NCBI GenBank assembly: GCA_033391075.1
Contig: JAWPMV010000001.1
Coordinates: 2,914,001-2,978,000, forward strand
Reading direction: 5' to 3'
From: Bacteroidia bacterium
GTDB lineage: Bacteria; Bacteroidota; Bacteroidia; J057
DNA length: 64,000 bases
Below, one piece after another: positions 1,524 through 33,886 of this stretch. Positions within the stretch are counted from its first letter, which is position 1; every line of letters starts with the position of its first letter. A program made the translations under genes and the position numbers. The notes below the pieces were generated by a model. The model was not told the DNA's origin. It worked only from the letters and a program-made list of their open reading frames with translations, and made no database searches.

Positions 1524-4500
1524 TTATCTTTTCATATAAGCCTCATCATGATTGAGGATGGTACTTGACACTACTGCTAATGCAGCAGTCTTCGGTATTT
1601 CCAGCTTTGTATTGCCGGCATATTCACCATAAGCAAGCAATTCTTTTGCTTTGGAGGGATCGTTTTGGAAGCGATCCAATTGTTTCTCATACAACTCTTT
1701 GAGCAATTTGATTTCTTCAGGCTTTGCTTTGCGGCCTGTGCTCAGTCTAAAAGCATATAAAATCTGTTCCTCCAGATCGCCTTCTTTTTCCAGTTGAATT
1801 CGCTCGGCGAGCACGCGAGCAGCTTCAACAAATTGGGGGTCATTAAGTAACACCAATGCCTGCAAGGGTGTATTGGTATTTTCTCTCTTGACTACACAAA
1901 TATCTCTGTTAGGAGCATCGAAAGCTGTCATGGATGGATGTGGAGAGGTACGCTTGACAAAGGTGTATAAACTCCGTCGATACAGACTATCTCCCCTGGT
2001 AACTTTGTATCGAAGCAGGCGATAAGAGAAATTGCCTTTTTCTATCCAAAGGCCTTCCGGTTGGTAAGGCTTTACACTTTCGCCCCCAACTTTCTGCACC
2101 AAAAGACCGCTGGCTGCCAATGCATTATCTCTAATCATCTCCGCCGGCAATCGGTAGCTGGAACCCCGAGCCAACCATATATTCGATGGATCAATTTCTT
2201 TTGCCTTTTCTCTAATTTCGGATGATTGCTGATAGGTATGAGACATGTATATTTTCTTCAATAAAGCCTTCAGATCCCATCCGTTTTCCATAAAATCTAC
2301 CGCCAACCAATCCAAAAGTTCCGGATGTGTGGGTAAAGCTCCCTGTACCCCAAAATCCTGGGGTGTATTAACCAGGCCCTGCCCAAAAATCATTTGCCAG
2401 TATCGATTAACGGTAACCCGGGCCGTTAGCGGGTTATCATTTGTAAATATCCACTTTGCCAGCCCCAATCTGTTTTGTAATTCCTCGGTTGAAAAGGCAG
2501 GTAGTACTTCGGGAGTACCCATTCCAACTTCATACATAGGATCATCATATTCTCCCCGGTTATAGGCGAAGGTAGTCCGAGCTTCGGGCATTTCCTCCAT
2601 TACCATCACTTCCGGAATTTCATTGCTCAATTCCAGCCATTCATCTCTCAGGGCTTTCAACTTCTTTTTTTGAGCCACTACTTCCCTTTCTTTCCCAAGC
2701 CAATACACAGCTAAAAGATCTTTAGGTTCATCTGCACTTTCAATTCCGGCTATTTTTGATACTTCTATTTCTGCCAACTCTCTTCCATAAATTACCAATT
2801 CATCCATCAGGCCTTTGTAGGCTCCAATTTCCCCGGTAAAAGCTCTTCCGCTCAAGCCCACCCGTACACTCCTGATCTGGACAACATGTGAACCACCCGC
2901 TACGCTTTTTGCGGATTTATACAATTGATCAAAGACCACTTCGCCCTTCATTTTTTTCCCATCTTTGAACAAACTAAAGCCCTTTGCTTTGCCCGATCCA
3001 TTATAGCTAAAAGCCAAATGCTTCCAGCTATTGATTTTTATGGAATCCTGGCTGCGAAAATGAAGGTAGTTGTGTGGGGGTGAATGAATGATTCGAGCAT
3101 TCAGTCTATTTAAGGTATCCAGGTAAAAATCCCATCCCCGCCAATAGCTATTTTTCTCACTACTGGTTCCCATCAGGGTCTGGGTTTCCCCTTTCTTTCT
3201 TTTAGAAGTATTCGCCCATAATCCCGCAGAAAAAGCATCCGTCCATTCAAAATTGGGGATGTTTTGCAGGTAAATCTCATCATAGTTTCCGCTCAGCTCC
3301 AATGCATTTCCATTTTTTCCTTTTACTACTGAGGCTTTTCCATTGGAGACACTGACCGTCGAATTGTCAATCACATATTTAGCATTGCCATCTGTGATTC
3401 CATTTGAAAACTTTCTTTTCCCATCAGATTTTTTTCGCTCCCGAATGGAATTGAACGGATAATAGCCTACACGAGCTTCTTTGGCATGAGACTTTGGCAA
3501 TTTTTTGAGGTATTCTTTGGTCGAAAGAAGCTTTGATTCTAAAGCCTTCAAAACTGCCTCTTCTTTCTCTATCTCAATTTTTAGTTGAGTCCTCTTTGTT
3601 TCTGTTTCATCATCTGCCACAGAAAGCATAGGCCCATAGTTCCCATCATCTCCCGTCATCCCCAATTCTTTTACATTATTGAAGAAAGCGGTGAGTTGAT
3701 AGTATTCTTTTTGAGAAATCGGATCAAATTTGTGATCATGACAGCGCGCACAGCCTACGGTCAATCCCAAAAAAGCAGTTGATACTGTTTCCGTTCTATC
3801 AAATACGTAGCCCAGGCGAAATTCTTCATCTATCACTCCGCCTTCTGCTGTCATGGGGTGATTTCGATTGAAAGCGGTGGCCAGTTTTTGATCACGACTT
3901 GCATTCGGCATGAGGTCTCCCGCCAATTGCCAGGTGGCAAATTGATCATAGGGCATATTTTCCTGAAAAGCCTTAATCACCCAATCTCTCCAGGGCCACA
4001 TCATCCGCCAACCATCTGCATGCATCCCATGTGAATCCGCATAACGTGAAATATCCATCCACTCCATTGCCATCCTTTCGGCATAAGCATCCGAATTTAA
4101 AAACTCATCTACCCTTTTCTCATAGGCTTGTGGATCCTCATCCTTCAGGAAATTTTCCATTTCCTCAACACTAGGAGGCAAACCCCTTACATCCATGCTC
4201 AATCTTCTGAGGAGTCGTTCCTTATCCGCTTTCTCTGCAGGCTCAAGACCTACTTGAGGCAAAGCATGCTGCACAAAGACATCAATCTCATTTTCGACTA
4301 AAGCTGCGTTTTTTTCATGAGCAGGAAGCGCAGATTTTTCAGGTGGAATAAAAGCCCAATGCTCTTTCCATTCAGCTCCTTCTTCTATCCATTTAAATAA
4401 AATGGCTTTTTCTCTTTCACTCAGAACCAAATTTGAGGTCGGAGGAGGCATTTGAAATTCAGGGTCATCACTAAGTATGCGTTCGATACTTTGGCTTTTC

Positions 4501-4787
4501 CCAGCCTTTCCAGCTACAAAAGCATAGCCATTACCTGAGGAAAGGGCCTTGAAAGCTTCATCTTCCAGGTCCAGCCTTAGGCCTGCTTCACGCGTATTTT
4601 CATCCGGACCATGGCAAGAATAGCATCTATCAGATAAGATAGGCCGCACATGGAAATTAAAATCAATTTTCTCCGGAAGCTCTGAATATGCCTCTTCCAG
4701 CTTTGCAGGAACCTTATCTCCACAAGCAGTGAAAAAGAAGAAAAATATGAAGGAAAGAAATGGTAGTAGTTTATAGCAAGTACGCAT
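1524..4787 (-). CDS. PSCyt1/DUF1549/LamG/DUF1553 lipoprotein (planctomycete-type cytochrome c protein)
   Basis: This 1087-residue protein starts with a lipoprotein signal (hydrophobic run ending FTAC, Cys22), so it should be anchored to a membrane. A haem c motif CYSCH lies at residues 55-59 in the PSCyt1 domain. DUF1549 follows (about 160-370) and holds a second CxxCH-like motif (CARCH, near 345). A concanavalin/LamG-like domain is inserted at about 450-690, and DUF1553 occupies about 780-1030. The order is typical of large PSCyt1-DUF1549-LamG-DUF1553 proteins. It is the first gene of a probable two-gene unit with the DUF1501 gene downstream. Known families only: the haem motif implies a redox or electron-transfer role, perhaps in breakdown of complex substrates, but the reaction is unknown. 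The identification is firm, the function is not. Confidence 0.92.
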   Translation of the reverse strand: MRTCYKLLPFLSFIFFFFFTACGDKVPAKLEEAYSELPEKIDFNFHVRPILSDRCYSCHGPDENTREAGLRLDLEDEAFKALSSGNGYAFVAGKAGKSQSIERILSDDPEFQMPPPTSNLVLSEREKAILFKWIEEGAEWKEHWAFIPPEKSALPAHEKNAALVENEIDVFVQHALPQVGLEPAEKADKERLLRRLSMDVRGLPPSVEEMENFLKDEDPQAYEKRVDEFLNSDAYAERMAMEWMDISRYADSHGMHADGWRMMWPWRDWVIKAFQENMPYDQFATWQLAGDLMPNASRDQKLATAFNRNHPMTAEGGVIDEEFRLGYVFDRTETVSTAFLGLTVGCARCHDHKFDPISQKEYYQLTAFFNNVKELGMTGDDGNYGPMLSVADDETETKRTQLKIEIEKEEAVLKALESKLLSTKEYLKKLPKSHAKEARVGYYPFNSIRERKKSDGKRKFSNGITDGNAKYVIDNSTVSVSNGKASVVKGKNGNALELSGNYDEIYLQNIPNFEWTDAFSAGLWANTSKRKKGETQTLMGTSSEKNSYWRGWDFYLDTLNRLNARIIHSPPHNYLHFRSQDSIKINSWKHLAFSYNGSGKAKGFSLFKDGKKMKGEVVFDQLYKSAKSVAGGSHVVQIRSVRVGLSGRAFTGEIGAYKGLMDELVIYGRELAEIEVSKIAGIESADEPKDLLAVYWLGKEREVVAQKKKLKALRDEWLELSNEIPEVMVMEEMPEARTTFAYNRGEYDDPMYEVGMGTPEVLPAFSTEELQNRLGLAKWIFTNDNPLTARVTVNRYWQMIFGQGLVNTPQDFGVQGALPTHPELLDWLAVDFMENGWDLKALLKKIYMSHTYQQSSEIREKAKEIDPSNIWLARGSSYRLPAEMIRDNALAASGLLVQKVGGESVKPYQPEGLWIEKGNFSYRLLRYKVTRGDSLYRRSLYTFVKRTSPHPSMTAFDAPNRDICVVKRENTNTPLQALVLLNDPQFVEAARVLAERIQLEKEGDLEEQILYAFRLSTGRKAKPEEIKLLKELYEKQLDRFQNDPSKAKELLAYGEYAGNTKLEIPKTAALAVVSSTILNHDEAYMKR

Positions 4788-4950: not shown

Positions 4951-5403
4951 ATGAAAAAATCTCGTTTTATTCTAGCTGCCCTTCTTTCGATATGCCTGTT
5001 TATTCCACAATTGAGTCAGGCCACAAATCCAGAATCAGAAGAAGTAGTTCAAAAATCGCTGGAAACCAAACAGCTTGAAAAGATTCTGGAGACAGATGAA
5101 AGTGGAAAATTTTTGCCCATCCAATTGGTGAGTAATGGTCTGGTAGACAAAGGAGCAGAATTCCGGAGAGATGGTAGCAAGATTTATGTTTTTGATAGTT
5201 CTGATGCCCAGGGCTTGAATCAAGACCAGAAGTATCTGGAGTTAAAAAGCATGAAGATCAAAAAGAAAAAATCGATCCTGAAATATGAGTATGCAGGAAA
5301 GAAGGTAAGAATCGCATTAAAGAAATTGGAAGGAGACTGGAATTATCGATCTATCTACATCAAAAAAGGTAAAGGGAGTTATTACCTGGATGTTACTACC
5401 TAA
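4951..5403 (+). CDS. Small exported protein of unknown function
   Basis: 150 residues with a clear Sec signal peptide (MKKSRFILAALLSICLFIPQ, cleavage probably after LSQA). The mature part is charged and lysine-rich, with alternating short strands (KSMKIKKKKSILKYEYAGKKV) suggesting a small beta-rich periplasmic protein. It has a normal start and stop and no overlap with neighbours. It lies divergent from the PSCyt1 gene and 160 bp upstream of the marR gene. I do not recognise the family. Confidence 0.75.
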   Translation: MKKSRFILAALLSICLFIPQLSQATNPESEEVVQKSLETKQLEKILETDESGKFLPIQLVSNGLVDKGAEFRRDGSKIYVFDSSDAQGLNQDQKYLELKSMKIKKKKSILKYEYAGKKVRIALKKLEGDWNYRSIYIKKGKGSYYLDVTT

Positions 5404-5500
5404 CTAAGCATTTAATCCGTCATATTTATACAATCGTGTCCGGATGGTTCCCAGCCATTCGGGCATTTTTTTAATGAAGAAAAAATGAATTAGAAATAAA

Positions 5501-5533
5501 TTTGATTTTTCCCGAACAATTATCATACCTTCG
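5501..5533 (+). promoter_or_regulatory. Bacteroidota-type promoter of the marR gene
   Basis: A -33-like TTTG at 5501-5504 and a -7-like TACCTTCG at 5526-5533 (consensus TAnnTTTG) are separated by 21 bp. The expected start is about 5540, on top of the inverted repeat at 5540-5553. The spacing is good; the -7 box departs at one consensus base. Confidence 0.5.
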
Positions 5534-5539
5534 CGTTTA

Positions 5540-5553
5540 GTTACAAGTGTAAC
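5540..5553. promoter_or_regulatory. MarR operator O1 (GTTACAAGTGTAAC)
   Basis: A 14-bp inverted repeat with 6-bp arms GTTACA/TGTAAC, lying at the predicted transcription start and 9 bp before the marR ATG. A near-identical copy precedes the adaptor gene. MarR dimers typically bind such palindromes and repress their own gene, so autoregulation is inferred. Confidence 0.65.
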
Positions 5554-5562
5554 CAATTTTCT

Positions 5563-6066
5563 ATGCAAGAAAATCCAAAAATATTTCAGAGTCTGGGTGC
5601 TTATCTGGGGAAAGCAGGTAAAGTTATGGGGAAGAGATTGAGCGAAAATTTTGCAGCTGCCGGATACGACATCAATTTGGAACACTGGATCATTCTTGTT
5701 CACCTCTGGGCACAGGATGGTTTGAATCAAAAATCCCTGTGTGATTTCGCCGGACAGCATAAAACAGCCATTACCCGAGCGATCAATAGTCTTGAAAAAC
5801 TGGGCTTTGTAGTTAGGATTCCTGATAAATTGGATAAAAGGAACAAATTGATATACCTCACCCATCAAGGGAAAGAGGTTCGGGAAGGACTGGTTGAGCA
5901 AATGCAAAAAACCATAGGCGAAGCAACCAAAGGTATAGCAGCAGAGGATATCGAAACTTGCAAACAGGTATTGGGCAAAGTTTTCCTAAACCTGGCTGAC
6001 GAAGAACATATACAATTTTCATCATATAATAGTTACAATCGTAACGAAACTAATAGTAACTCCTAA
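5563..6066 (+). CDS. MarR family transcriptional regulator of RND efflux operon
   Basis: A 167-residue winged-helix protein. The recognition-helix region (LNQKSLCDFAGQHKTAITRA, about residues 65-85) and the wing with the conserved D-K-R motif (PDKLDKRNKLIYLT) are typical MarR elements, flanked by dimerisation helices. It is the first gene of a set continuing with an RND adaptor (24 bp gap), pump and outer-membrane channel. MarR repressors often sit before the pumps they control and release DNA on binding small lipophilic compounds. Paired operators (5540-5553 and 6032-6045, the second inside the 3' end of this gene) suggest control both of itself and of the pump genes. Confidence 0.92.
   Translation: MQENPKIFQSLGAYLGKAGKVMGKRLSENFAAAGYDINLEHWIILVHLWAQDGLNQKSLCDFAGQHKTAITRAINSLEKLGFVVRIPDKLDKRNKLIYLTHQGKEVREGLVEQMQKTIGEATKGIAAEDIETCKQVLGKVFLNLADEEHIQFSSYNSYNRNETNSNS
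6032..6045. promoter_or_regulatory. MarR operator O2 (GTTACAATCGTAAC)
   Basis: An inverted repeat with 5-bp arms GTTAC/GTAAC and a 4-nt centre, matching the operator before marR at 11 of 14 positions. It lies inside the last codons of marR, 46 bp before the adaptor ATG, where it could control a second internal promoter for the pump genes or roadblock transcription. No clear -33/-7 pair was found beside it. Confidence 0.55.
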
Positions 6067-6090
6067 CAATTTCACGCAAACACTAGCGAG

Positions 6091-7203
6091 ATGAGTAGAA
6101 ATATCACAGTTGCACTGGCCGTTGGATTCCTGATCCTTTCTGGGGTAGGATTTTCGGTAATCAGCGGTATGAAAAAACCGGCTGAACTAAAAGAAGTCAG
6201 TAAAGTAATCAAACAGGTAAAAGGCCTGGAAGTCAAAAATACCAGCCTAAATACCCAATTAGAAATAACCGGCCGCTTACAAGCTGCCAAGAAAATCGAG
6301 GTATTTACAGAAGTCGGAGGAACCCTGCTTCCAAATGGCAATCGTTTTAGGGAAGGAAATTTCTTTAAAAAAGGTTCTGTTCTCGTAAGGGTAGACAATA
6401 GCGAACAATTGTTGGGTCTGCTGGCTCAAAAGAGTTCGCTGATGAATCAAATTACCCTCATGCTCCCCGACCTCAAATCAGATTATCCGCAAAGTTTCCC
6501 CAATTGGCAGAAATACCTGGATCAAATGGATGTAAATAAAGCGCTGGAACCCCTTCCAGAAGCTGTTTCAGATCAGGAAAAGTATTTTGTTTCTGCCAGA
6601 AACCTTTACAATCTCTTTTACAATATTCAGAGCCAGGAGAAAAGAATGAGCAAGTTCACTGTTCATGCCCCCTTTAATGGAGCCTTATCTCAGGCGATGA
6701 TTACAGAGGGAACCCTGGTACGAGCCGGTCAAAAACTCGGAGAGTTTATGAACACCTATACTTTCGAACTTGAAGCTTCAATAAACGAAGGAGATATCAA
6801 TCTACTCAGAAGGGGAAATAAGGTAGAACTTTTCTCTGATGACAAAAGCAAAAGCTGGAAAGGTACCGTATTGCGCATCAGCAACACCATCGATCCGGCA
6901 ACTCAAACCGTCAAAGTTTTCATTAGTGTTTCAGGAGAAGGCCTTAGAGAAGGTATGTATTTGAGCGGAACAGCAAATGGACGGAAACTGGATAATGTCT
7001 TTGAAATCTCAAGGAACCTCCTGATTGATCAGGATAAAGTATATGTCATAGAAGATTCCGCTCTGAAGATAGTCCAAATAAATCCCCTCTATCTAACCTC
7101 CCAAAATGCCATTGTTTCCGGTTTGCCAGAAAATAGCATCATGATGAACGAAGCCTTGATTGGTGCCTATGAAGGTCTGAAGGTTAACACCTATTTCGAA
7201 TAA
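6091..7203 (+). CDS. RND efflux periplasmic adaptor subunit (HlyD/MFP family)
   Basis: 370 residues with an N-terminal membrane anchor (about residues 6-24), then the membrane-fusion fold: a split lipoyl/barrel-sandwich domain (LEITGRLQAAKKIEVFTEVG near 55 and FTVHAPFNGALSQ near 190) flanking a helical hairpin, then a beta-barrel domain. It joins the inner-membrane pump to the TolC-like channel. The gene is 36 bp before the pump gene with a good ribosome site between them. The hairpin is short, as in other Bacteroidota adaptors. Substrate cannot be read from sequence. Confidence 0.92.
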   Translation: MSRNITVALAVGFLILSGVGFSVISGMKKPAELKEVSKVIKQVKGLEVKNTSLNTQLEITGRLQAAKKIEVFTEVGGTLLPNGNRFREGNFFKKGSVLVRVDNSEQLLGLLAQKSSLMNQITLMLPDLKSDYPQSFPNWQKYLDQMDVNKALEPLPEAVSDQEKYFVSARNLYNLFYNIQSQEKRMSKFTVHAPFNGALSQAMITEGTLVRAGQKLGEFMNTYTFELEASINEGDINLLRRGNKVELFSDDKSKSWKGTVLRISNTIDPATQTVKVFISVSGEGLREGMYLSGTANGRKLDNVFEISRNLLIDQDKVYVIEDSALKIVQINPLYLTSQNAIVSGLPENSIMMNEALIGAYEGLKVNTYFE

Positions 7204-7239
7204 TCAATCCCTAAATCACCTAAAGGAACAAAAGGAATT

Positions 7240-10200
7240 ATGAAAAATATCATTTCCTATTTTATCAGACATGCGATATCTGCGGATGTGCTTGTCATCT
7301 TGATTCTCCTCTTTGGGGTTCTGGGATTGTCGAGTATGCGAAGTACCTTCTTCCCCGAAACGGATACGAAACTGATTAGCATAAACATCCCTTTTCCTGG
7401 AGCTTCACCAGAAGAAATGGAAGAAGGCGTAATCCTGAAAATTGAAGATAACCTCAGTGGAATTTCAGGAATTGAAACCATCACTTCTCTATCTCAGGAA
7501 AACTCAGGAAGCGTAAGGGTACAGATCAAAGATGGTTATGACATAGATGAAGTACTTACAGATGTAAAGAATGCTGTTGACAGAATCAACTCATTTCCTG
7601 CGGGAATGGAACCCGCTGTTATTTCAAAATCCGAAGTTTTAACGCTGGCAATTACCTTTGCGATTAGCGGAGATATTGATCTGCGAACCTTGAAACAGTT
7701 TGCGGATGAAGTGGAAGATGACTTGCTGGCGAGTTCTAATATTTCCAAGGTATCTGTGGCAGGATTTCCGGCAGAAGAAGTTCTTATTAGTGTAAGGGAA
7801 AATGATCTGCGGAAATTTAACCTCACTTTTGATCAGGTTTCAAATGCCGTTCGAGCTGCTAACATCGAAATCTCCGGTGGAACGATCAAAGGTAGCACAG
7901 AAGATCTCCTCATCAGATCCAAGAATAAAAGATATTATGCGAAGGATTTTGAGGACTTTGTAGTTGCTACCAATCCTGATGGCAGGCAGGTAAAATTGTA
8001 TGAAGTCGCAGATGTCAAAGATGCCTGGGCCGAAGCAACGAATCGAGTATATGTAAATAGAAAACCAGCGGCATACATCAATGTAAACAATACTTCTGAT
8101 GAAAACCTGCTTACGATTTCAGAAGAGGTTGGAGAATATATCGCCAGCTTTAATGAGAAAAACTCCGTCGTACAAGCAGAGATTATCAATGATGGTGCGG
8201 TAGAATTGAGGGAAAGGGTAAACCTGCTTTCCGAAAATGGAATTGTCGGTTTTACACTGGTTGTAATAATTCTGGCAATGTTCCTCCAAATCCGATTGGC
8301 TTTCTGGGTAGCCCTGGCCATTCCGGTTTCCTTTATGGGAATGTTTATTCTGGCTCCGCTCTTTGGGGTTAGTATCAATATGCTTTCTCTATTCGGTATG
8401 ATCCTGGTAATCGGGATTCTGGTGGATGATGGAATTGTGATCAGTGAGAATATCTATCGGCATTTTGAGATGGGGAAAAGCAGACATCAGGCAGCTTTAG
8501 ATGGGACCATGGAAGTGCTTCCCGCTGTTACAGGAGCCATCCTTACAACCATAGTCGCATTTGCTGTATTCTTTTTCATTGATGGAACAGTTGGGGATTT
8601 CTTCTCAGAAATCAGTGTTGTCGTAATTCTGACCCTGGCCTTCTCCTTATTGGAAGGAGCCTTTGTCTTACCTGCTCACGTTTCTCATTCCAAAGCCTTA
8701 ACTCCTCCGGAAGAAAAAGTTGAAGAAAAAACACTAATCGGAAAATGGTTTCAGAAATTGCAGCAAAGCTTATGGGATGCAATGGAATGGATGAAAACCA
8801 GATTTTATGAACCCATTCTTCTTTTCTTCTTAAGAAATACCGTCCTGGGAATAGCCATTCCTATTGGCCTATTGGTATTAAGCGTCAGCTTGTTTTTCGG
8901 TGGATTTGTGGAAGGAACTTTTTTCCCAAATATAGAATCCAATTTTGTTACAGTAAGCCTGAAAATGCCTGCGGGTACACCAGAATCAGTAACACAAAAA
9001 GGATTAGATCAAATTGAAACCGCCGTTTGGAAGGTAAATCAGAATTACAAAGAAGAGCGGGCAGACAAAAAGGATGTCGTGCTTATTCTTTCCAAAAACC
9101 TGGGTGCTTCCAGCGGAGCAGGGGTAGCAGCTCCACAGGATGGTGCAATAGCAGCAACAGGAGGTGCCAATTCAGGTAGTGTCCTTGTCAACCTCATGAA
9201 GGGCGAAGACAGAAATCTCAAAGCTATTGAGCTTGTAGATGCCTTCAGAAAAGAAACGGGAACTATATTCGGAGCTGAACAGCTTTCATTTTCGACTGCT
9301 ACTCCTTTCGGTGATCCGGTTTCTATTTCCGTAAGAGGACAGGATCTGGAGGAGCTTACTTCGGCAGTAAATGAAATCAAAGGCGAAATGGCAAAAATGC
9401 CGGACCTGGTTGATGTGAGGGATAACAATCAGGTAGGCCTGAAAGAGATCAACATAAAGCTAAAGGACAAAGGCTACCTACTGGGATTAACTCCCCAGTT
9501 TGTAATAGCTCAAATCCGACAGGGATTCTTTGGTGCAGAAGTTCAACGATTGCAAAGAGGGAAAGATGAAGTAAAAGTATGGGTACGATATTCCAAAGCT
9601 GATCGGTCATCAATCGGAAAATTGGAGAATATGCGAATCCGGACGGCAAACGGTCAGGCCTATCCTCTGAAAGAATTGGTGGACCTGGATTTTAGTCGGG
9701 GAATCATAGCCATCAATCACCTGGATGGAGATCGGGAAATTAGAATTATTTCTGATTTAGTCTCAGATGATGTTCAGTCTTCCGTTGCCAATGCTACGAT
9801 AGAATCTCAAATCATTCCGGCTGTATTGTCAAAATATCCCAGTGTCCGATATTCTATGGAAGGACAGGTAAAAGAGTCTGCGAAAACTGCGTCTTCAGCA
9901 GGTAGAATCATGCCCTTTGCCTTTATCCTGATTATGACCATCATTATCGTAACCTTCAGATCATGGTCTCAGACGATAGCAGTAGGCTTGACATTGCCCT
10001 TTGGTTTCATCGGAGTAATAGTGGGTCATGCAATCATGGGTAAGCCTATCAGTATGCTATCCATGATGGGAGTATTTGCACTGGTTGGAGTGATGGTAAA
10101 TGATGCCCTGGTATTGGTCAATGCATTTAATCAATTAATAAAAGAAGGCAAGCCATTCAAAGAAGCCTTGCATGAAGCAGCCCTCTCACGTTTCCGACCT

Positions 10201-20337: not shown

Positions 20338-22449
20338 TTATAAATCCCTAATATATTGTTCTCCTTCTGAATCTGTGATTATTGCAAGAGCTGCTTTAGC
20401 TCTCGAAACACCAACATACAAATTTTCCTTTAGGTTGGCATGGCTGCCTTGATGAATCAATATTACCCCATCAGCCTCTAAACCTTTATACTGTGACACA
20501 TCATAAACCCTATATGTCTTGGAATTATTGGTAATTGGCGTATTGAAATTGATTACAGTTTCCGTATATAGTCCTTCTGCCCAATTTTCATCCTGAAAAA
20601 ACAAAACAATTTCAGAGCCCCACAAACCTAAATCCCGTCTCCGATATAACATTTTCATTTTCCCATTCATATTTTTCCAATAAATTCTATTGGCTCTTTC
20701 AGTAAATGAAATGGGAGCAGAATGATTATTTATATCTAAACCAATTGAATTCGCCAGTTCAATAACTGATTCAATGTCTTTATTTGATGGCAATTCATCA
20801 GAACTCAAACCTAAGTTTTCAAATTTATGCTTTATCCAATCGCTGTTATAGCCTTTCTTGATTAGTTTTCCATTATTTACAGCCTCAAGCAATCGAAGGT
20901 ATAATTCATCTTTCCAACCGCTTCCCTTAGGCTTTCTAATAAGAATTTGATTCAAGTCCCAGTCTTTTACCCTTAATGAACCCGAAAGGAGAATTGCTAT
21001 TTCATTTAGGCCTTCAAATTTTTCAATCCAGCGAACGGCATTTGGTAAAAGCTCGTTAAATACCCTTTCAATTTCTTTATAGGAATATAGTTTCACTTCC
21101 CCTAATCCTACAAGATCTTCAGAAGCCAGTGGTGCATTGAAGTGGAAGTTTTTCCTCATGAAATTAAAAATCTCGCCTCCATTTCTACAATTTCTTGACA
21201 AATCAATGACAGGTGATTCAATGGGATATTTACCTCTAAATGGCAAAAGTGCCTGGTTATCATCATGAAAAATGTAAAAGAAGCTGTTAGTAGAATTTTC
21301 TAATAACAATTCCAGAATCGTCCACCATTTTTCTCTAAAATCCTGTCCCTCATCGACAATTATTGCCCCATAAGTTTTCTGTCCATGATCAATTTTTTCA
21401 AATGCACTTTCTAATTCTGAATCAGTCGGTTCATATATATTGGTCCATTCCTTACCATAATCAATGGGCGGTTTCCCATTTAGCGAATTAATCCAATTCC
21501 CAAAAGAAAATACTTCCACACCAGAACCGGCAACTAGTCTCTCTAACTTATCAGCCAAATACGGATTATGGCAAAGGAGTAAAGTATCAATGCCTACATT
21601 TGATAATCGAATAGCTTTTTCGGCTGCTACAAGGGTTTTACCAGATCCAGCACAACCACTTATACGAACCCTTTTATTCACCCTTATCATCCTTAGCGTA
21701 CGATATTGATCGTCAGTAAGGTTTTTAACCTTTTGCCGTAATAAGGCCATGGTCGAGCTGATAGATTCTGTGAAATTGTTAGTCTTAATTGAATACCCAT
21801 CCCTAAGTTTCCAGGAAAGCATAGAATCGTCTGCTACGTAGAGACCCCATTCCAATTCATCTTCCAGCTTTTCTTCTTCCTCTCCAAAATACAAACTTCT
21901 AAATACTCGTTGATTTTCTGCTCCCGGTTCAATTACCGCTTTCGCTTTATTAAAGGCTTCTTCCAGTGTATCTCCGGCAACGAAGGAGCCATAAAAACTC
22001 TTAGAAAATTCAGCTGCTTTGTAATCATTTACTTCATGGCTAGTAGCTATGATAGCAGGAATGCCAGAATAAAGAAGAGATTCAACATGATCAAGGGTTT
22101 TACATGCATTTAAGAAAACCAATTGCAAATTTGGAGCGGCCTGCAAGAAGTCTTTTAAGGAGGTAGTATTGAATGCTATGTTTTTATTTTCTGCCGTCTG
22201 AAAATTGAGTTTATTACCATCATTGTGCCCTGAAAAATGAAAAACCAGTAACTGAGTCTTAAATTCATTCAAGTCTCGTAAAAGTTTATCGGGTTCAGTA
22301 GTTGCCGATGAATAAAAACTCCCCCATCCTTTCTTTTGATATCTTATCAAAATTGACTGAATGGCATCCTTTTCGGGAATTAGGGCATTGAGGAATACGC
22401 CTTCCTCATCATTAGCAAAAGTTAGAAATATTAAGGGTGCGTCTTTCAA
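20338..22449 (-). CDS. CHAT protease domain fused to SF1 (UvrD/Rep-like) helicase
   Basis: 703 residues. The N-terminal third (about 1-215) is a CHAT caspase-like domain with the catalytic pair in FHFSGH (His75) and VFLNAC (Cys116), clearly paralogous to the N-terminus of the WD40 protein upstream (LIFLTFAND versus VVFLTFAND; EEAFNKAKAVI versus ETAFNQAKTVI). A helicase core follows: Walker A GCAGSGKT (265-272), Walker B IIVDEGQD (363-370), motif IV-like LSRNCRN, motif V-like YKGLEADGVIL and motif VI LYVGVSRAKAAL. The start must be TTG at 22447-22449: a stop lies five codons upstream and no in-frame ATG occurs before residue ~233. The product could use nucleic-acid state to control proteolysis. 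It is 281 bp from the tRNA-fragment junction. Confidence 0.9.
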   Translation of the reverse strand: MKDAPLIFLTFANDEEGVFLNALIPEKDAIQSILIRYQKKGWGSFYSSATTEPDKLLRDLNEFKTQLLVFHFSGHNDGNKLNFQTAENKNIAFNTTSLKDFLQAAPNLQLVFLNACKTLDHVESLLYSGIPAIIATSHEVNDYKAAEFSKSFYGSFVAGDTLEEAFNKAKAVIEPGAENQRVFRSLYFGEEEEKLEDELEWGLYVADDSMLSWKLRDGYSIKTNNFTESISSTMALLRQKVKNLTDDQYRTLRMIRVNKRVRISGCAGSGKTLVAAEKAIRLSNVGIDTLLLCHNPYLADKLERLVAGSGVEVFSFGNWINSLNGKPPIDYGKEWTNIYEPTDSELESAFEKIDHGQKTYGAIIVDEGQDFREKWWTILELLLENSTNSFFYIFHDDNQALLPFRGKYPIESPVIDLSRNCRNGGEIFNFMRKNFHFNAPLASEDLVGLGEVKLYSYKEIERVFNELLPNAVRWIEKFEGLNEIAILLSGSLRVKDWDLNQILIRKPKGSGWKDELYLRLLEAVNNGKLIKKGYNSDWIKHKFENLGLSSDELPSNKDIESVIELANSIGLDINNHSAPISFTERANRIYWKNMNGKMKMLYRRRDLGLWGSEIVLFFQDENWAEGLYTETVINFNTPITNNSKTYRVYDVSQYKGLEADGVILIHQGSHANLKENLYVGVSRAKAALAIITDSEGEQYIRDL

Positions 22450-22681: not shown

Positions 22682-22713
22682 AAAAAAAAACGCGACTTGC
22701 AAATAGTCGCGTT
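22682..22713 (-). terminator. Terminator hairpin beside displaced tRNA 3' end
   Basis: On the minus strand, stem AACGCGACT, loop ATTTGCA, AGTCGCGTT, followed by a run of eight or more T. It lies just past the tRNA 3'-end fragment at 22731-22752 and probably was the terminator of the original tRNA gene; today it could end the CHAT-WD40 transcript. Confidence 0.8.
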
Positions 22714-22912: not shown

Positions 22913-25900
22913 TTAGTAGCCTTTTCGATAGGCTTTAGGAATGCCATATTCCTCTTTTTCCTGATCCGAAAGAGGAGCTATGGGTACAGTTCTGAGGTAC
23001 TTAAATAATGCTTCAGGTGTCAGCCAAATTCTAATCTTCCCATCCTCTGACCAGCTGAGGATCTTATCTTCCCCCTGGCTAAAGACAGCGCCGTAGATAT
23101 AACTCTCATGCTCCATAGTGGCCAGCTCTTTGCCCGAGACATCCCAGAGCTTGACAGAGCCATTTTCTGACCAGCTGAGGATCTTATCTTCCCCCTGGCT
23201 AAAGACAGCCTCCCCTAGGACACTCCTCTCATGCTCCATAGTGGCCAGCTCTTTGCCCGAGACATCCCAGAGCTTGACAGAGCCATCCTCTGACCAGCTG
23301 AGGATCTTATCTTCCCCCTGGTTAAAGATAGCCCCTAGGACAATGCTCTCATGCTCCATAGCAGCCAGCTCTTTGCCCAAGACATCCCAGAGCTTAACAG
23401 AGCCATCAAATGACCAGCTGAGGATCTTATCTTCCCCCTGGCTAAAGACAGCGCCATCGACATAACTCTCATGCTCCATAGCAGCCAATTCTTTGCCCAA
23501 GACATCCCAGAGCTTAACAGAGCCATCCTCTGACCAGCTGAGGATCTTATCTTCCCCCTGGCTAAAGACCGCCCCTCGGACACTCCTCTCATGCTCCATA
23601 GCAGCCAGCTCTTTGCCCGAGACATCCCAGAGTTTGACTGAGCCATCAGAAGACCAGCTGAGGATCTTATCTTCCCCTTGGCTAAAGACCGCCCTAAGGA
23701 CAAGTCTCTCATGCTCCATTGCAGCCAGCTCTTTGCCCGAGACATCCCAGAGCTTGACAGAGCCATTTTCTGACCAGCTGAGGATCTTATCTTCCCCCTG
23801 GCTAAAGACAGCCCCTAGGACACTCCTCTCATGCTCCATAGCAGCCAGCTCTTTGCCCAAGACATCCCAGAGCTTGACAGAGCCATCAGATGACCAGCTG
23901 AGGATCTTATCTTCCCCCTGGCTAAAGACAGCCCCTTGGACACTGTTCTCATGCTCCATAGCAGCCAATTCTTTGCCCGAGACATCCCAGAGCTTGACAG
24001 AGCCATCAAATGACCAGCTGAGGATCTTATCTTCCCCCTGGCTAAAGACAGCCCCTAGGACATCACTCTCATGCTCCATAGCAGCCAGCTCTTTGCCCGA
24101 GACATCCCAGAGCTTGACAGAGCCCTTGCTTCCAAACCCCTTCCCAGACCAACTGAGGATCTTATCTTCCCCCTGGTTAAAGACAGCCCCTTGGACAATG
24201 TTCTCATGCTCCATAGTAGCCAGTTCTTTGCCCGAGACATCCCAGAGCTTGACAGAGCCATCAGATGACCAGCTGAGGATCTTATCTTCCCCCTGGCTAA
24301 AGACAGCGCCATCGACATAACTCTCATGCTCCATAGCAGCCAGCTCTTTGCCCAAGACATCCCAGAGCTTAACAGAGCCATCAATTGACCAGCTGAGGAT
24401 CTTATCTTCCCCCTGGCTAAAGACAGCCCCTAGGACACTCCTCTCATGCTCCATAGCAGCCAGCTCTTTGCCCGAGACATCCCAGAGCTTGACAGAGCCA
24501 TCAGATGACCAGCTGAGGATCTTATCTTCCCCCTGGCTGAAGACCGCCCCTTGGACAATGCTCTCATGCTCCATAGCGGCCAATTCTTTGCCCAAGACAT
24601 CCCAGAGCTTGACAGAGCCATCATATGACCAGCTGAGGATCTTATCTTCCCCCTGGCTAAAGACAGCCCCTAGGACACTCCTCTCATGCTCCATAGCAGC
24701 CAGCTCTTTGCCCGAGACATCCCAGAGCTTGACAGAGCCATCATATGACCAGCTGAGGATCTTATCTTCCCCCTGGCTAAAGACAGCCCCTAGGACACTG
24801 TTCTCATGCTCCATAGCAGCCAGCTCTTTGCCCAAGACATCCCAGAGCTTGACAGAGCCATCATCTGACCAGCTGAGGATCTTATCTTCTCCCTGGCTAA
24901 AGACAGCCCCTTGGACATCACTCTCATGCTCCATAGCAGCCAGCTCTTTGCCCGATACACCCCAGAGCTTGACAGTGCCATCATCTGACCAGCTGAGGAT
25001 CTTATCTTCCCCCTGGCTAAATACAGCCCCTTGGACATCACTCTCATGCTCCATAGCAGCCAGCTCTTTGCCCGAGACATCCCAGAGCTTGACAGTGCCA
25101 TCATCTGACCAGCTGAGGATCTTATCTTCCCCCTGGCTAAAGACAGCCCCTTGGACATAACTCTCATGCTCCATAGTAGCCAGCTCTTTGCCCGAGACAT
25201 CCCAGAGCTTGATAGAGCCCTTCTTACCTTCAAAACGATCCCTGGACCAGCTGAGGATCTTATCTTCCCCCTGGCTAAAGACCGCCCCTTGGACTCTACT
25301 CTCATGCTCCGTAGCAGCCAGCTCTTTGCCCGAGACATCCCAGAGCTTGACAGAGCCATCATATGACCAGCTCAGTACCTTATCTTCCCCCTGGCTGAAG
25401 ACCGCCCCTTGGACAGGCTCCGCATGAATAAAGTTTACCTCTGCAAACTTTTTCTTGTGCAAGAGCGGTTGATAATAGGCTGAAAACAGGTTTGTCACCA
25501 CTTTAGGATCAGGACTCAGACTATCAGCGGCGTAGGCCGCCTCAGCCAATCTTAAAGATCTGGTAGAGTTGATAGATCTCTGATCTTTTGAATTTGCCGC
25601 TAGAAGTGCCGAGGCTCCATCCTTCCCTCTCTCTATCCCATCTACTCCTAGAAAAGCGGCTACTCCTGAAATGGATAAAATGACAATAATAGCAGCAATG
25701 CCTAAACCCAGAATGATTCGATTTCGTTTTTTTCTTTTTTCTCGGGCTGTTTGGCTATCTGTAATTAAGCGCTCTTCCTCCTTCATCCATGCCCTCATGC
25801 CTGTTTTGCCTGCTTCTACGGTAGACAAATCTTCCTCATCCAGGATACCTGTTTCCTCAGTGGAATTGAGCATTTTACTTTCCAAAATCCTGTAGGCTCT

Positions 25901-31330: not shown

Positions 31331-33886
31331 TTAGTTTCTAATCATCAGCTTTTGGCTTAGGCTTTTTCCCTCAATTTGAAACTGAATAAAGTAGATCCCC
31401 TCTACAAGCTTTTTATCCCGCAGATCAAAAGTAATAGTATGTGGTCCGGGAGCATTTTTTCCTTGAGAAAGGAATAAAGCTCTGCCCTGCATATCCAGCA
31501 ATCGAATCTGTACATCTGCATATTCTTCCAACTCATAATTAAGGCTAAGTTGATCCTTTGCCGGATTTGGAAAAAGCTTGAGTCCAAGTGCTGCCAATTC
31601 CTCATCTACTGAAGTATTGTTTCCTGAAGCCGGAATCCAAAGCAAACTGGGGTCTCCCTGAAGATTGAACTGCAGGGCATGATTGACATATTGAATTCCA
31701 CGGAGAGAATCCATGGAAGTTTTGATCGCTGTATTGATAGCCGTTCCCAATCTTGTATGATTGGCAGCATAAAGCTCCCGATACAAAAACTTGCCTAAAT
31801 CTCTTAAAGGATTCAGATAAGCACTGGCTGAGGTACCTAAATAAGCAATTGCCCCTCGATTGGGTTCAACCATCCACCTTTCTCCAAAACTCCAGTCTCT
31901 GCTAAAATCGGCGCCATTACATCCCATCGCTATCATAACAGGATATCGACCATAGTTTTGATAGTCTGTTGCTTCGCCGATTTCAATGTCCTGGATATTA
32001 GCCGTTGAATGTCCGAAGAAATGAATCAGGCCCACGCCATTATCGATTTCATCATAACAAAGTTGATTGGGATCTGCACTGCTATCAATCAGGCAGAAAT
32101 TATTGCTGCGCAAAGCATTTCCGCTGTCAAAGATATTTCTGAAATTTTCTAAAGAAGCACGAATAGCTGATTGTTCTCCCGCACTTGCTCCTCCTCCCAG
32201 AAAAACTGCCTTATGAATCCATGAACTATCAGCCGCCTGCTCGTATTCAATTACCTTATTCAGGTAGTTCATCCCGTCCTGATTGTTACGAATATTGACC
32301 CTGCCGATAGGAATTTGAGGAATGACAGAATCCCTGTCCGGAGCCTCCAGTTTACTCACAAAAATGTAATCACTGACCGGATTCCCATAAGAAGGAAGTA
32401 AATTTTCTGCCTGGTCTCTAATCTCATTTTTAGCATTTCCCCACAGCAATATATACTCAGGAGCCAATTGCCAATTATCTAAGGCATAATTGCAAAACCT
32501 CTGAATTGCCAGAGGACTTGGAGTACCATACCCAAACTCATCATAAATATTATCTACATAAACAATTTGAGTGGACAAGGAATTGATCGGATTGTTTTCC
32601 CGATAACTTTGATAGGATTCGGCTGATTGCTGGAGATCTCTATGAGTAATGATGACTAATTCTTCTCCCTGGGAGACATCGGATAGATTCTGAAATTGAG
32701 CTACAGAAATTGTAGCTGTATTGATTGATCTATCACTCGCTATATATAAATCTCTTTTCTCCGGAAAGCCTTTAACAATCACCTGCCCGGTATCCTGAGA
32801 AATAAGGCCTACATTCCGAATACCAGTTGACAGATCATATACAAATACGGTATCCCTGCCATCCAAGTCTTCGAATTGAAAATAGGCATCTGCATTCTTT
32901 TCCCAGGCAGAAATCTTCATATGAGACGCTCCCGCAAGATTCGGCAATCTGTTATAAGTCAAAGATGCTCTTGACAAATGATTTAGGTCTCCCGAAAAAA
33001 GCAGTGCTCTTAATTCCAGCTTCGTTTGAGGACCTATGAGTGTAGAAGCTGAGAGTTTTCGACTATATGATTTTTGATAAATGGAGGAAATATTGATCGT
33101 TGTATCCAAAAAGGGATTAGCAGTATCTCCGTTTATAGCAGCATTTACATGGTGCCGGGTTCGGGATCCCCCAAAAATCCGAAAATCAACTGCTACTGCA
33201 GGCGTATCGCTTCGGGCAGAAGGTGTATCGAAATTTAGAGATAATGGAGTCCCGGTTCCATATGCGGGTCCTAGATATCCTTCCCCTATCCCATATAAAG
33301 GGTTCAAGGTATAAAATGGCTCATAGGGCCCTCCTCCTCCTAATACTAAGCTCGTTTCAGATTTAGCAGGATCGAAAAGAATGAGCGACTCATACCTGAA
33401 ATGTGGTTCTGCAATAAAGGCGCCATAGGCATCATTGAAATAGGTCTGATATCTAGAAGAGGAAGCTTGCTGATCCCAAGTCAGATAAAATACGGAGCTA
33501 TCTGAAAAGAGGCTGAATTCCGGATGCGGCTGAAGGCCAGGATCTTTCCTTCCCTGCGAAGCATCCCGGTATAAACCTGCATCATCTTTTCCATCGAGGC
33601 GATCTGCAAAAAATTCTACTCCTTGTACTTCTCCATTGCTATTTTGATAAAGGAATATTTTCTGTTCCTCTCCTCTGAAATATAAATGGAAATTATCTGC
33701 GGGAATACTGCTTATATCAATACCGACAGCTTGAAACTCCTCCATATCTATGCGATAAATCCCTCTTTCTGCAGTTTCAATTTTGATATAGGTTTGATTC
33801 GGATTGATCCAGTCGTTGCCGTAATTCTGGGAAATTAGATTGTAAGAATACAGACAAAAAATGAGGGATAGGATCGTGTATTTCAT
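31331..33886 (-). CDS. C25 (gingipain-like) cysteine protease with T9SS sorting domain
   Basis: 851 residues. Signal peptide (MKYTILSLIFCLYSYNLIS), a beta-rich N-terminal region, then the caspase-like C25 catalytic domain with His in GLIHFFGHST and Cys in MIAMGCNGADF, about residues 415-740. The last 75 residues are a type A T9SS sorting domain (LFPNPAKDQLSLNYELEE ... GIYFIQF), so it is exported through the type IX system and attached or released at the surface. Secreted protein digestion is the likely role. Full-length relative to C25 proteins of this type. Confidence 0.92.
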   Translation of the reverse strand: MKYTILSLIFCLYSYNLISQNYGNDWINPNQTYIKIETAERGIYRIDMEEFQAVGIDISSIPADNFHLYFRGEEQKIFLYQNSNGEVQGVEFFADRLDGKDDAGLYRDASQGRKDPGLQPHPEFSLFSDSSVFYLTWDQQASSSRYQTYFNDAYGAFIAEPHFRYESLILFDPAKSETSLVLGGGGPYEPFYTLNPLYGIGEGYLGPAYGTGTPLSLNFDTPSARSDTPAVAVDFRIFGGSRTRHHVNAAINGDTANPFLDTTINISSIYQKSYSRKLSASTLIGPQTKLELRALLFSGDLNHLSRASLTYNRLPNLAGASHMKISAWEKNADAYFQFEDLDGRDTVFVYDLSTGIRNVGLISQDTGQVIVKGFPEKRDLYIASDRSINTATISVAQFQNLSDVSQGEELVIITHRDLQQSAESYQSYRENNPINSLSTQIVYVDNIYDEFGYGTPSPLAIQRFCNYALDNWQLAPEYILLWGNAKNEIRDQAENLLPSYGNPVSDYIFVSKLEAPDRDSVIPQIPIGRVNIRNNQDGMNYLNKVIEYEQAADSSWIHKAVFLGGGASAGEQSAIRASLENFRNIFDSGNALRSNNFCLIDSSADPNQLCYDEIDNGVGLIHFFGHSTANIQDIEIGEATDYQNYGRYPVMIAMGCNGADFSRDWSFGERWMVEPNRGAIAYLGTSASAYLNPLRDLGKFLYRELYAANHTRLGTAINTAIKTSMDSLRGIQYVNHALQFNLQGDPSLLWIPASGNNTSVDEELAALGLKLFPNPAKDQLSLNYELEEYADVQIRLLDMQGRALFLSQGKNAPGPHTITFDLRDKKLVEGIYFIQFQIEGKSLSQKLMIRN

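Follow-up and report, generated by a model that had tools for sequence, protein, structure and literature searches.

Among the genes of the window, by which we mean the whole 64,000-nucleotide stretch of the Bacteroidia genome analysed here, one joins a CHAT protease and an SF1 helicase in a single polypeptide. As judged from sequence comparison, one and the same helicase is joined either directly to CHAT or, in a second genome, to Effector-Associated Domain 11 (EAD11), an adaptor that is also carried by CHAT proteases. We propose that the fusion is a conflict or immune protein in which the helicase senses aberrant nucleic acid and turns on the protease, a reading to which we give about an even chance.

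The gene and its CHAT domain

A sequence-only reading of this DNA had claimed a CHAT protease fused to an SF1 helicase, and the reading frame, Pfam and the predicted structure all bear this out. The coordinates of the gene were confirmed (Table 1): its 703 codons form a single uninterrupted frame, and the plus strand of the same interval is rich in stop codons. TTG is the sole in-frame start codon, and the N-terminus that it defines aligns with the N-termini of paralogous proteins. In the Pfam scan CHAT (PF12770) scores 33.8 bits, above the cut-off of 24, and the His75/Cys116 dyad is kept in 36 of the 37 aligned CHAT relatives; the domain is predicted to be an intact cysteine protease. Neither mutated catalytic residues nor a housekeeping context, which the earlier reading had named as arguments against itself, was encountered, the dyad being intact. 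No TPR, SAVED, NERD or EAD11 domain was matched in the fusion by the Pfam scan, and a local NERD profile likewise detected no NERD at the N-terminus, where CHAT is found instead.

Table 1. Features of the CHAT-helicase gene and of the adjacent CHAT gene (positions in the window)
Feature	Position	Strand	Evidence
CHAT-SF1 helicase gene, 703 aa, TTG start	20338..22449	-	frame, Pfam, predicted structure
CHAT protease domain (predicted), aa 1-216	21802..22449	-	Pfam PF12770, dyad alignment, fold match 8tl0
His75 of CHAT dyad	22225-22227	-	
Cys116 of CHAT dyad	22102-22104	-	
SF1 (UvrD/NERD-helicase-like) helicase, aa ~239-703	20341..21735	-	Pfam, library models, alignment, fold
Helicase motif I (Walker A) GCAGSGKT, aa 265-272	21634..21657	-	GxAGxGKT invariant in 8/8 aligned helicases
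Helicase motif II (Walker B) VDEGQD, aa 365-370	21340..21357	-	sequence, alignment
Helicase motif VI YVGVSRAK, aa 678-685	20395..20418	-	sequence, alignment
Insertion of ~125-135 aa (aa ~505-640)	20530..20937	-	alignment, tree comparison
Neighbour, CHAT-nSTAND1-WD40 protein, 1605 aa	22913..27730	-	Pfam; paralogous CHAT
Strong intrinsic-terminator-like hairpin between both CHAT genes, 9 pairs then T9	22689..22713	-	

The helicase domain and the predicted structure

The C-terminal part of the protein matches the Pfam family UvrD-helicase (PF00580) at 28.7 bits (cut-off 23) and UvrD_C_2 at 24.9 bits, slightly below the cut-off of 27.4, and the three motifs listed in Table 1 are in place as the earlier reading had described them. 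The closest library models are all defence proteins, namely RTasNERD-Hel, NERD+UvrD, AbiO and GajB, the first two being NERD-helicases of candidate defence systems. Most of the partial helicase matches elsewhere bear an N-terminal NERD nuclease; the helicase of the fusion has no nuclease domain. No gene for GajA (OLD/TOPRIM nuclease) lies beside the fusion, which is flanked by DctP and, on its 5' side, by a CHAT-STAND-WD40 gene, and no defence genes flank it within the window. A gingipain-like C25 peptidase that bears a sorting domain for type IX secretion is also encoded in the window (31331-33886, minus strand).

From a 10-row alignment, AlphaFold gave a model of moderate confidence (mean pLDDT 69, pTM 0.50); mixed CHAT and helicase alignments (55 rows, 22 rows) misaligned the helicases. 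Residues 3-216 of the model match the activated SAVED-CHAT protease 8tl0_A, the nearest solved CHAT structure (Z 19.2, rmsd 3.3 A, 183 aligned), and residues 242-703 match UvrD 2is6_B (Z 23.9, rmsd 3.2 A, 292 aligned), followed by human Schlafen-11 and other SF1 helicases. The placement of CHAT relative to the helicase in the model is unreliable at this pTM.

An EAD11-helicase and other EAD11 proteins

The only other full-length copy of the helicase found belongs to Saprospiraceae bacterium DHS20C18 (L145:2503-4167). It is 38% identical to the helicase of the fusion over aa 230-699 (E 1e-95), both fall in one clade with a support of 1.0, and the long insertion is common to these two helicases only, being missing in the NERD-helicases compared. 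The N-terminus of the DHS20C18 protein is EAD11, not CHAT (Pfam E 3.5e-11, 43.4 bits, cut-off 26). Beside its gene stands a pair encoding an AAA ATPase and RloB, whose transcription runs towards the helicase gene, and there is no CHAT-STAND neighbour at the locus.

EAD11-CHAT proteins are present in both genomes (L147, 333 aa, in DHS20C18; L049, 317 aa, in the genome of the window), and the further fusion partners of EAD11 in these genomes comprise SIR2-like, TIR, kinase and other domains, the three named being familiar as effectors and signallers in conflict systems. At L049 the EAD11-CHAT gene lies beside a divergent SIR2-like-EAD11 gene (3748-4701 and 5168-6286), and the two are likely an adaptor-linked effector pair. 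A search for the EAD11 partner of the DHS20C18 helicase by EAD11 similarity failed, these domains being too divergent: that of the helicase shares 22% identity with the EAD11 of the own-genome CHAT protein and 29% with the closest of 49.

As one comparative study describes them, EADs couple effectors to core components through homotypic contact: the core component bears one copy, effector proteins bear others, and effectors linked in this way can alternatively be fused straight to the core component (PMC7159879). Because EADs act as adaptors and EAD11-CHAT proteins occur in both genomes, the CHAT-helicase of the window and the EAD11-helicase of DHS20C18 resemble alternative wirings of a shared design, in which the EAD11-helicase may recruit CHAT.

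Distribution of the fusion and of its CHAT subfamily

The whole fusion had no orthologue in draws of genomes from relatives, family, order, class and phylum, which are overlapping samples covering a small share of known species. It was also absent from 299 Flavilitoribacter relatives, from 394 Pacificimonas relatives, and from the plasmids, phages, genome contigs and viral contigs searched, and is a singleton across everything searched. The homologue search that the sequence-only reading had called for thus returned the full-length helicase relative of DHS20C18, but neither an orthologue of the entire fusion nor co-occurrence with a CHAT-STAND gene. Its remark that the architecture has no known name holds: no library model matched a CHAT-SF1 helicase, and CHAT-helicase, CHAT-NERD and EAD-helicase proteins are undescribed in the literature searched, a scope that lay outside subscription papers and bioRxiv.

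CHAT itself is abundant in this large-genomed member of Bacteroidota, which, to judge by named relatives, stands near Saprospiria-type genomes. The query matches 24 sites in the 9.49-Mb genome, most of them an N-terminal CHAT with a differing partner, and about 20 encode similar CHAT proteins, whose partners are WD40, NB-ARC-TPR, protein kinase, nSTAND1-FGE-sulfatase, iSTAND (two), TPR and regions that Pfam does not name. Across 84,980 species genomes, a scan located 452 loci of the subfamily, belonging to Saprospiria, Alphaproteobacteria, Calditrichota, KSB1, Aminicenantes, Planctomycetes and others. A helicase is a rare partner of this CHAT, since none was found in the chain or flanks of the best 80 of the 452 loci.

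Within this genome, the nearest CHAT to the fusion's own belongs to a CHAT-NB-ARC-TPR protein (L051:5005-7893) on contig C2, which at 176 kb is plasmid-sized, and the second closest is that of the window neighbour; TPR proteins similar to the L051 protein reside on plasmids of Haliscomenobacter hydrossis. The same genome encodes two LRR-Roc-COR proteins with a C-terminal CHAT (bacterial ROCO-CHAT; L047:4527-8060 and L050:2993-5686) and a third ROCO protein with a weak CHAT-like match only (L048:6006-9833). Two CHAT-only proteins stand in tandem (L045:5406-6281 and 6506-7357), one of which has its catalytic His replaced by Glu and may be an inactive partner. Five further proteins (L037, L038, L040, L053, L054) combine CHAT with a Pfam-nameless C-terminal region of ~350-400 aa, and CHAT proteins of this size are common among the other loci.

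Comparison with known systems

NERD-helicases (PADLOC RTasNERD-Hel, C3a187 NERD+UvrD) are the closest proteins outside the two Saprospiria-type genomes. They likewise consist of an N-terminal effector followed by a helicase, but have a NERD nuclease in place of CHAT, lack the ~125-aa insertion and share a core only ~26-30% identical to that of the fusion. From the other end of the molecule, the proteins in this genome and at the ~450 loci elsewhere that join CHAT to varied domains possess the same N-terminal CHAT subfamily and His/Cys dyad.

Craspase TPR-CHAT and SAVED-CHAT are CHAT proteases turned on by a nucleic-acid-derived signal, the activators being gRAMP-crRNA and cyclic oligonucleotide filaments, respectively. 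They differ from the fusion in their TPR or SAVED domain, neither of which was detected in it. Such CRISPR-linked CHAT proteases provide, in the portions of the reports available, a precedent for nucleic-acid-controlled proteolysis (PMC10028731, PMC9729208). In Hachiman (HamAB), a sensor helicase is proposed to restrain and then activate an effector, as we propose for the fusion (PMC12278908); the Hachiman effector, however, is a nuclease on a separate chain, whereas the protease considered here shares its chain with a helicase of an unrelated subfamily.

Proposed function and alternative explanations

Unlike the architecture and motifs, which are observed, nucleic-acid sensing, gating of the protease, its substrate and a role in defence are what we infer. 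The CHAT-helicase would be a single-chain sensor-effector in a bacterial conflict network serving immunity or regulated cell death. The SF1 helicase would engage aberrant nucleic acid, such as single-stranded DNA or DNA ends arising from phage, plasmid or damage, and its ATP-driven movement would free the N-terminal CHAT cysteine protease from inhibition; the freed protease would then cleave a cellular or partner protein in order to signal or kill. In DHS20C18, the EAD11-helicase would reach its effectors, CHAT included, by EAD-EAD contacts, and the fusion of the window would wire the protease directly. That helicase engagement could release the protease had already been suggested in the sequence-only reading; it still stands as a proposal, now strengthened by the occurrence of the same helicase with EAD11, an adaptor found on CHAT proteases as well.

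This sensor-effector reading is supported because the CHAT dyad and the helicase motifs are intact and both folds are recognised, because the full-length helicase relative bears EAD11 and EAD11-CHAT proteins exist in both genomes, because the nearest helicase models are defence proteins, and because Hachiman offers a precedent for gating by a helicase. It is weakened because the fusion was found once, no defence genes flank it in the window and the cognate EAD11 partner was not matched.

It is equally conceivable that the helicase is the effector arm. With the polarity reversed, CHAT would be a constant regulatory protease which, once activated, cuts its own chain or a partner, and the released helicase would attack nucleic acid or transcription. 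EACC1-caspase and EAD systems (Kaur et al. 2020, 2021) resemble this arrangement: as described in the accessible parts of these papers, they likewise combine a constant caspase-superfamily domain with variable partners and show adaptor-based modularity in large-genomed bacteria (PMC7159879, PMC8195603). The same parts of the first paper report up to 50 alternative C-terminal domains, suggest autoproteolytic deployment, propose such a release for EACC1-caspase systems, and list SF1 helicases, together with PIN, among the effectors (PMC7159879); neither a CHAT-helicase nor an EAD-helicase was found in them. A constant N-terminal CHAT with highly varied C-terminal domains, as in EACC1-caspase systems, is what is seen throughout the present genome. 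Against this, many of the other CHAT partners here are of sensor types (WD40, TPR, NB-ARC, iSTAND) and not toxic enzymes, the helicase is devoid of a nuclease domain, and a search of the genome with PF19953 (EACC1) gave no match, though control genomes were silent as well. We regard the reversed polarity, the main alternative, as unlikely.

That the fusion arose by accident, or that the gene is decaying or inert, with no joint function under selection, would agree with the singleton status, with the rare TTG start and with a composition indicative of recent arrival: the GC3 of the gene is 0.30, compared with 0.51 for its CHAT neighbour and 0.35-0.47 for the other window genes measured. Yet 703 codons are open, neither active site nor any aligned helicase motif is damaged, the N-terminus starts exactly where those of the paralogues do, and an independent homologue has an adaptor domain at the same position. 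The two halves of the gene are, moreover, equal in composition (GC3 0.315 and 0.297), which suggests that this low-GC gene arrived from outside as a single unit. An explanation by accident or decay appears improbable.

The neighbouring CHAT gene

The CHAT domains of the two adjacent genes had been called paralogous, and they are indeed 40% identical over 215 residues (E 4e-45). The suggestion that the genes form a pair fared worse. Pairing is doubtful because of the terminator, the gap in GC3 and the existence of about 20 CHAT proteins with unrelated partners, the last of which makes the neighbour one among many paralogues and not an evident special partner. Moreover, CHAT-nSTAND1-WD40 proteins are encoded without a helicase elsewhere in the genome (L042, L044), and the DHS20C18 relative has no CHAT-STAND neighbour. 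The fusion and the neighbour are probably not one system, the latter being a separate unit. A two-component system, in which CHAT-STAND-WD40 would detect protein and the CHAT-helicase nucleic acid, would suit two adjacent same-strand genes whose CHAT domains are so similar, but is very improbable given the terminator and 463 bp that separate them, their unlike GC3, the equally close CHAT-NB-ARC-TPR protein on a different contig and the helicase-free copies.

The WD40 part of the neighbour (23021-25408, minus strand) consists of ~20 near-identical 40-aa repeats, with a mean DNA identity of 87% among the 15 in register. Differences cluster at five repeat positions (16, 26, 37, 38 and 40), a variation that resembles the hypervariable WD40 repeats of the fungal HET-D/HET-E receptors and suggests a recognition surface under diversification.

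Significance

Bacterial defence already has helicase sensors that control nucleases. If the proposal is true, helicase sensing would reach further, to signalling by proteolysis and to regulated cell death, through a helicase in control of a caspase-like protease, much as in the RIG-I pathways of animals. A bacterial counterpart of RIG-I-like receptors, in which a helicase sensor reaches a caspase-like protease through an EAD11 adaptor or by direct fusion, is a tentative idea that we hold to be possible, though on the doubtful side; it would place proteolysis gated by nucleic acid among the helicase-based immune pathways of bacteria. The exchange of CHAT and EAD11 on one helicase constitutes a natural domain-fusion test, from which one would expect EAD11 effectors, CHAT proteases among them, to be recruited by EAD11-helicases. 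The swap suggests that a nucleic-acid alarm may here be coupled to a protease with a signalling or killing role.
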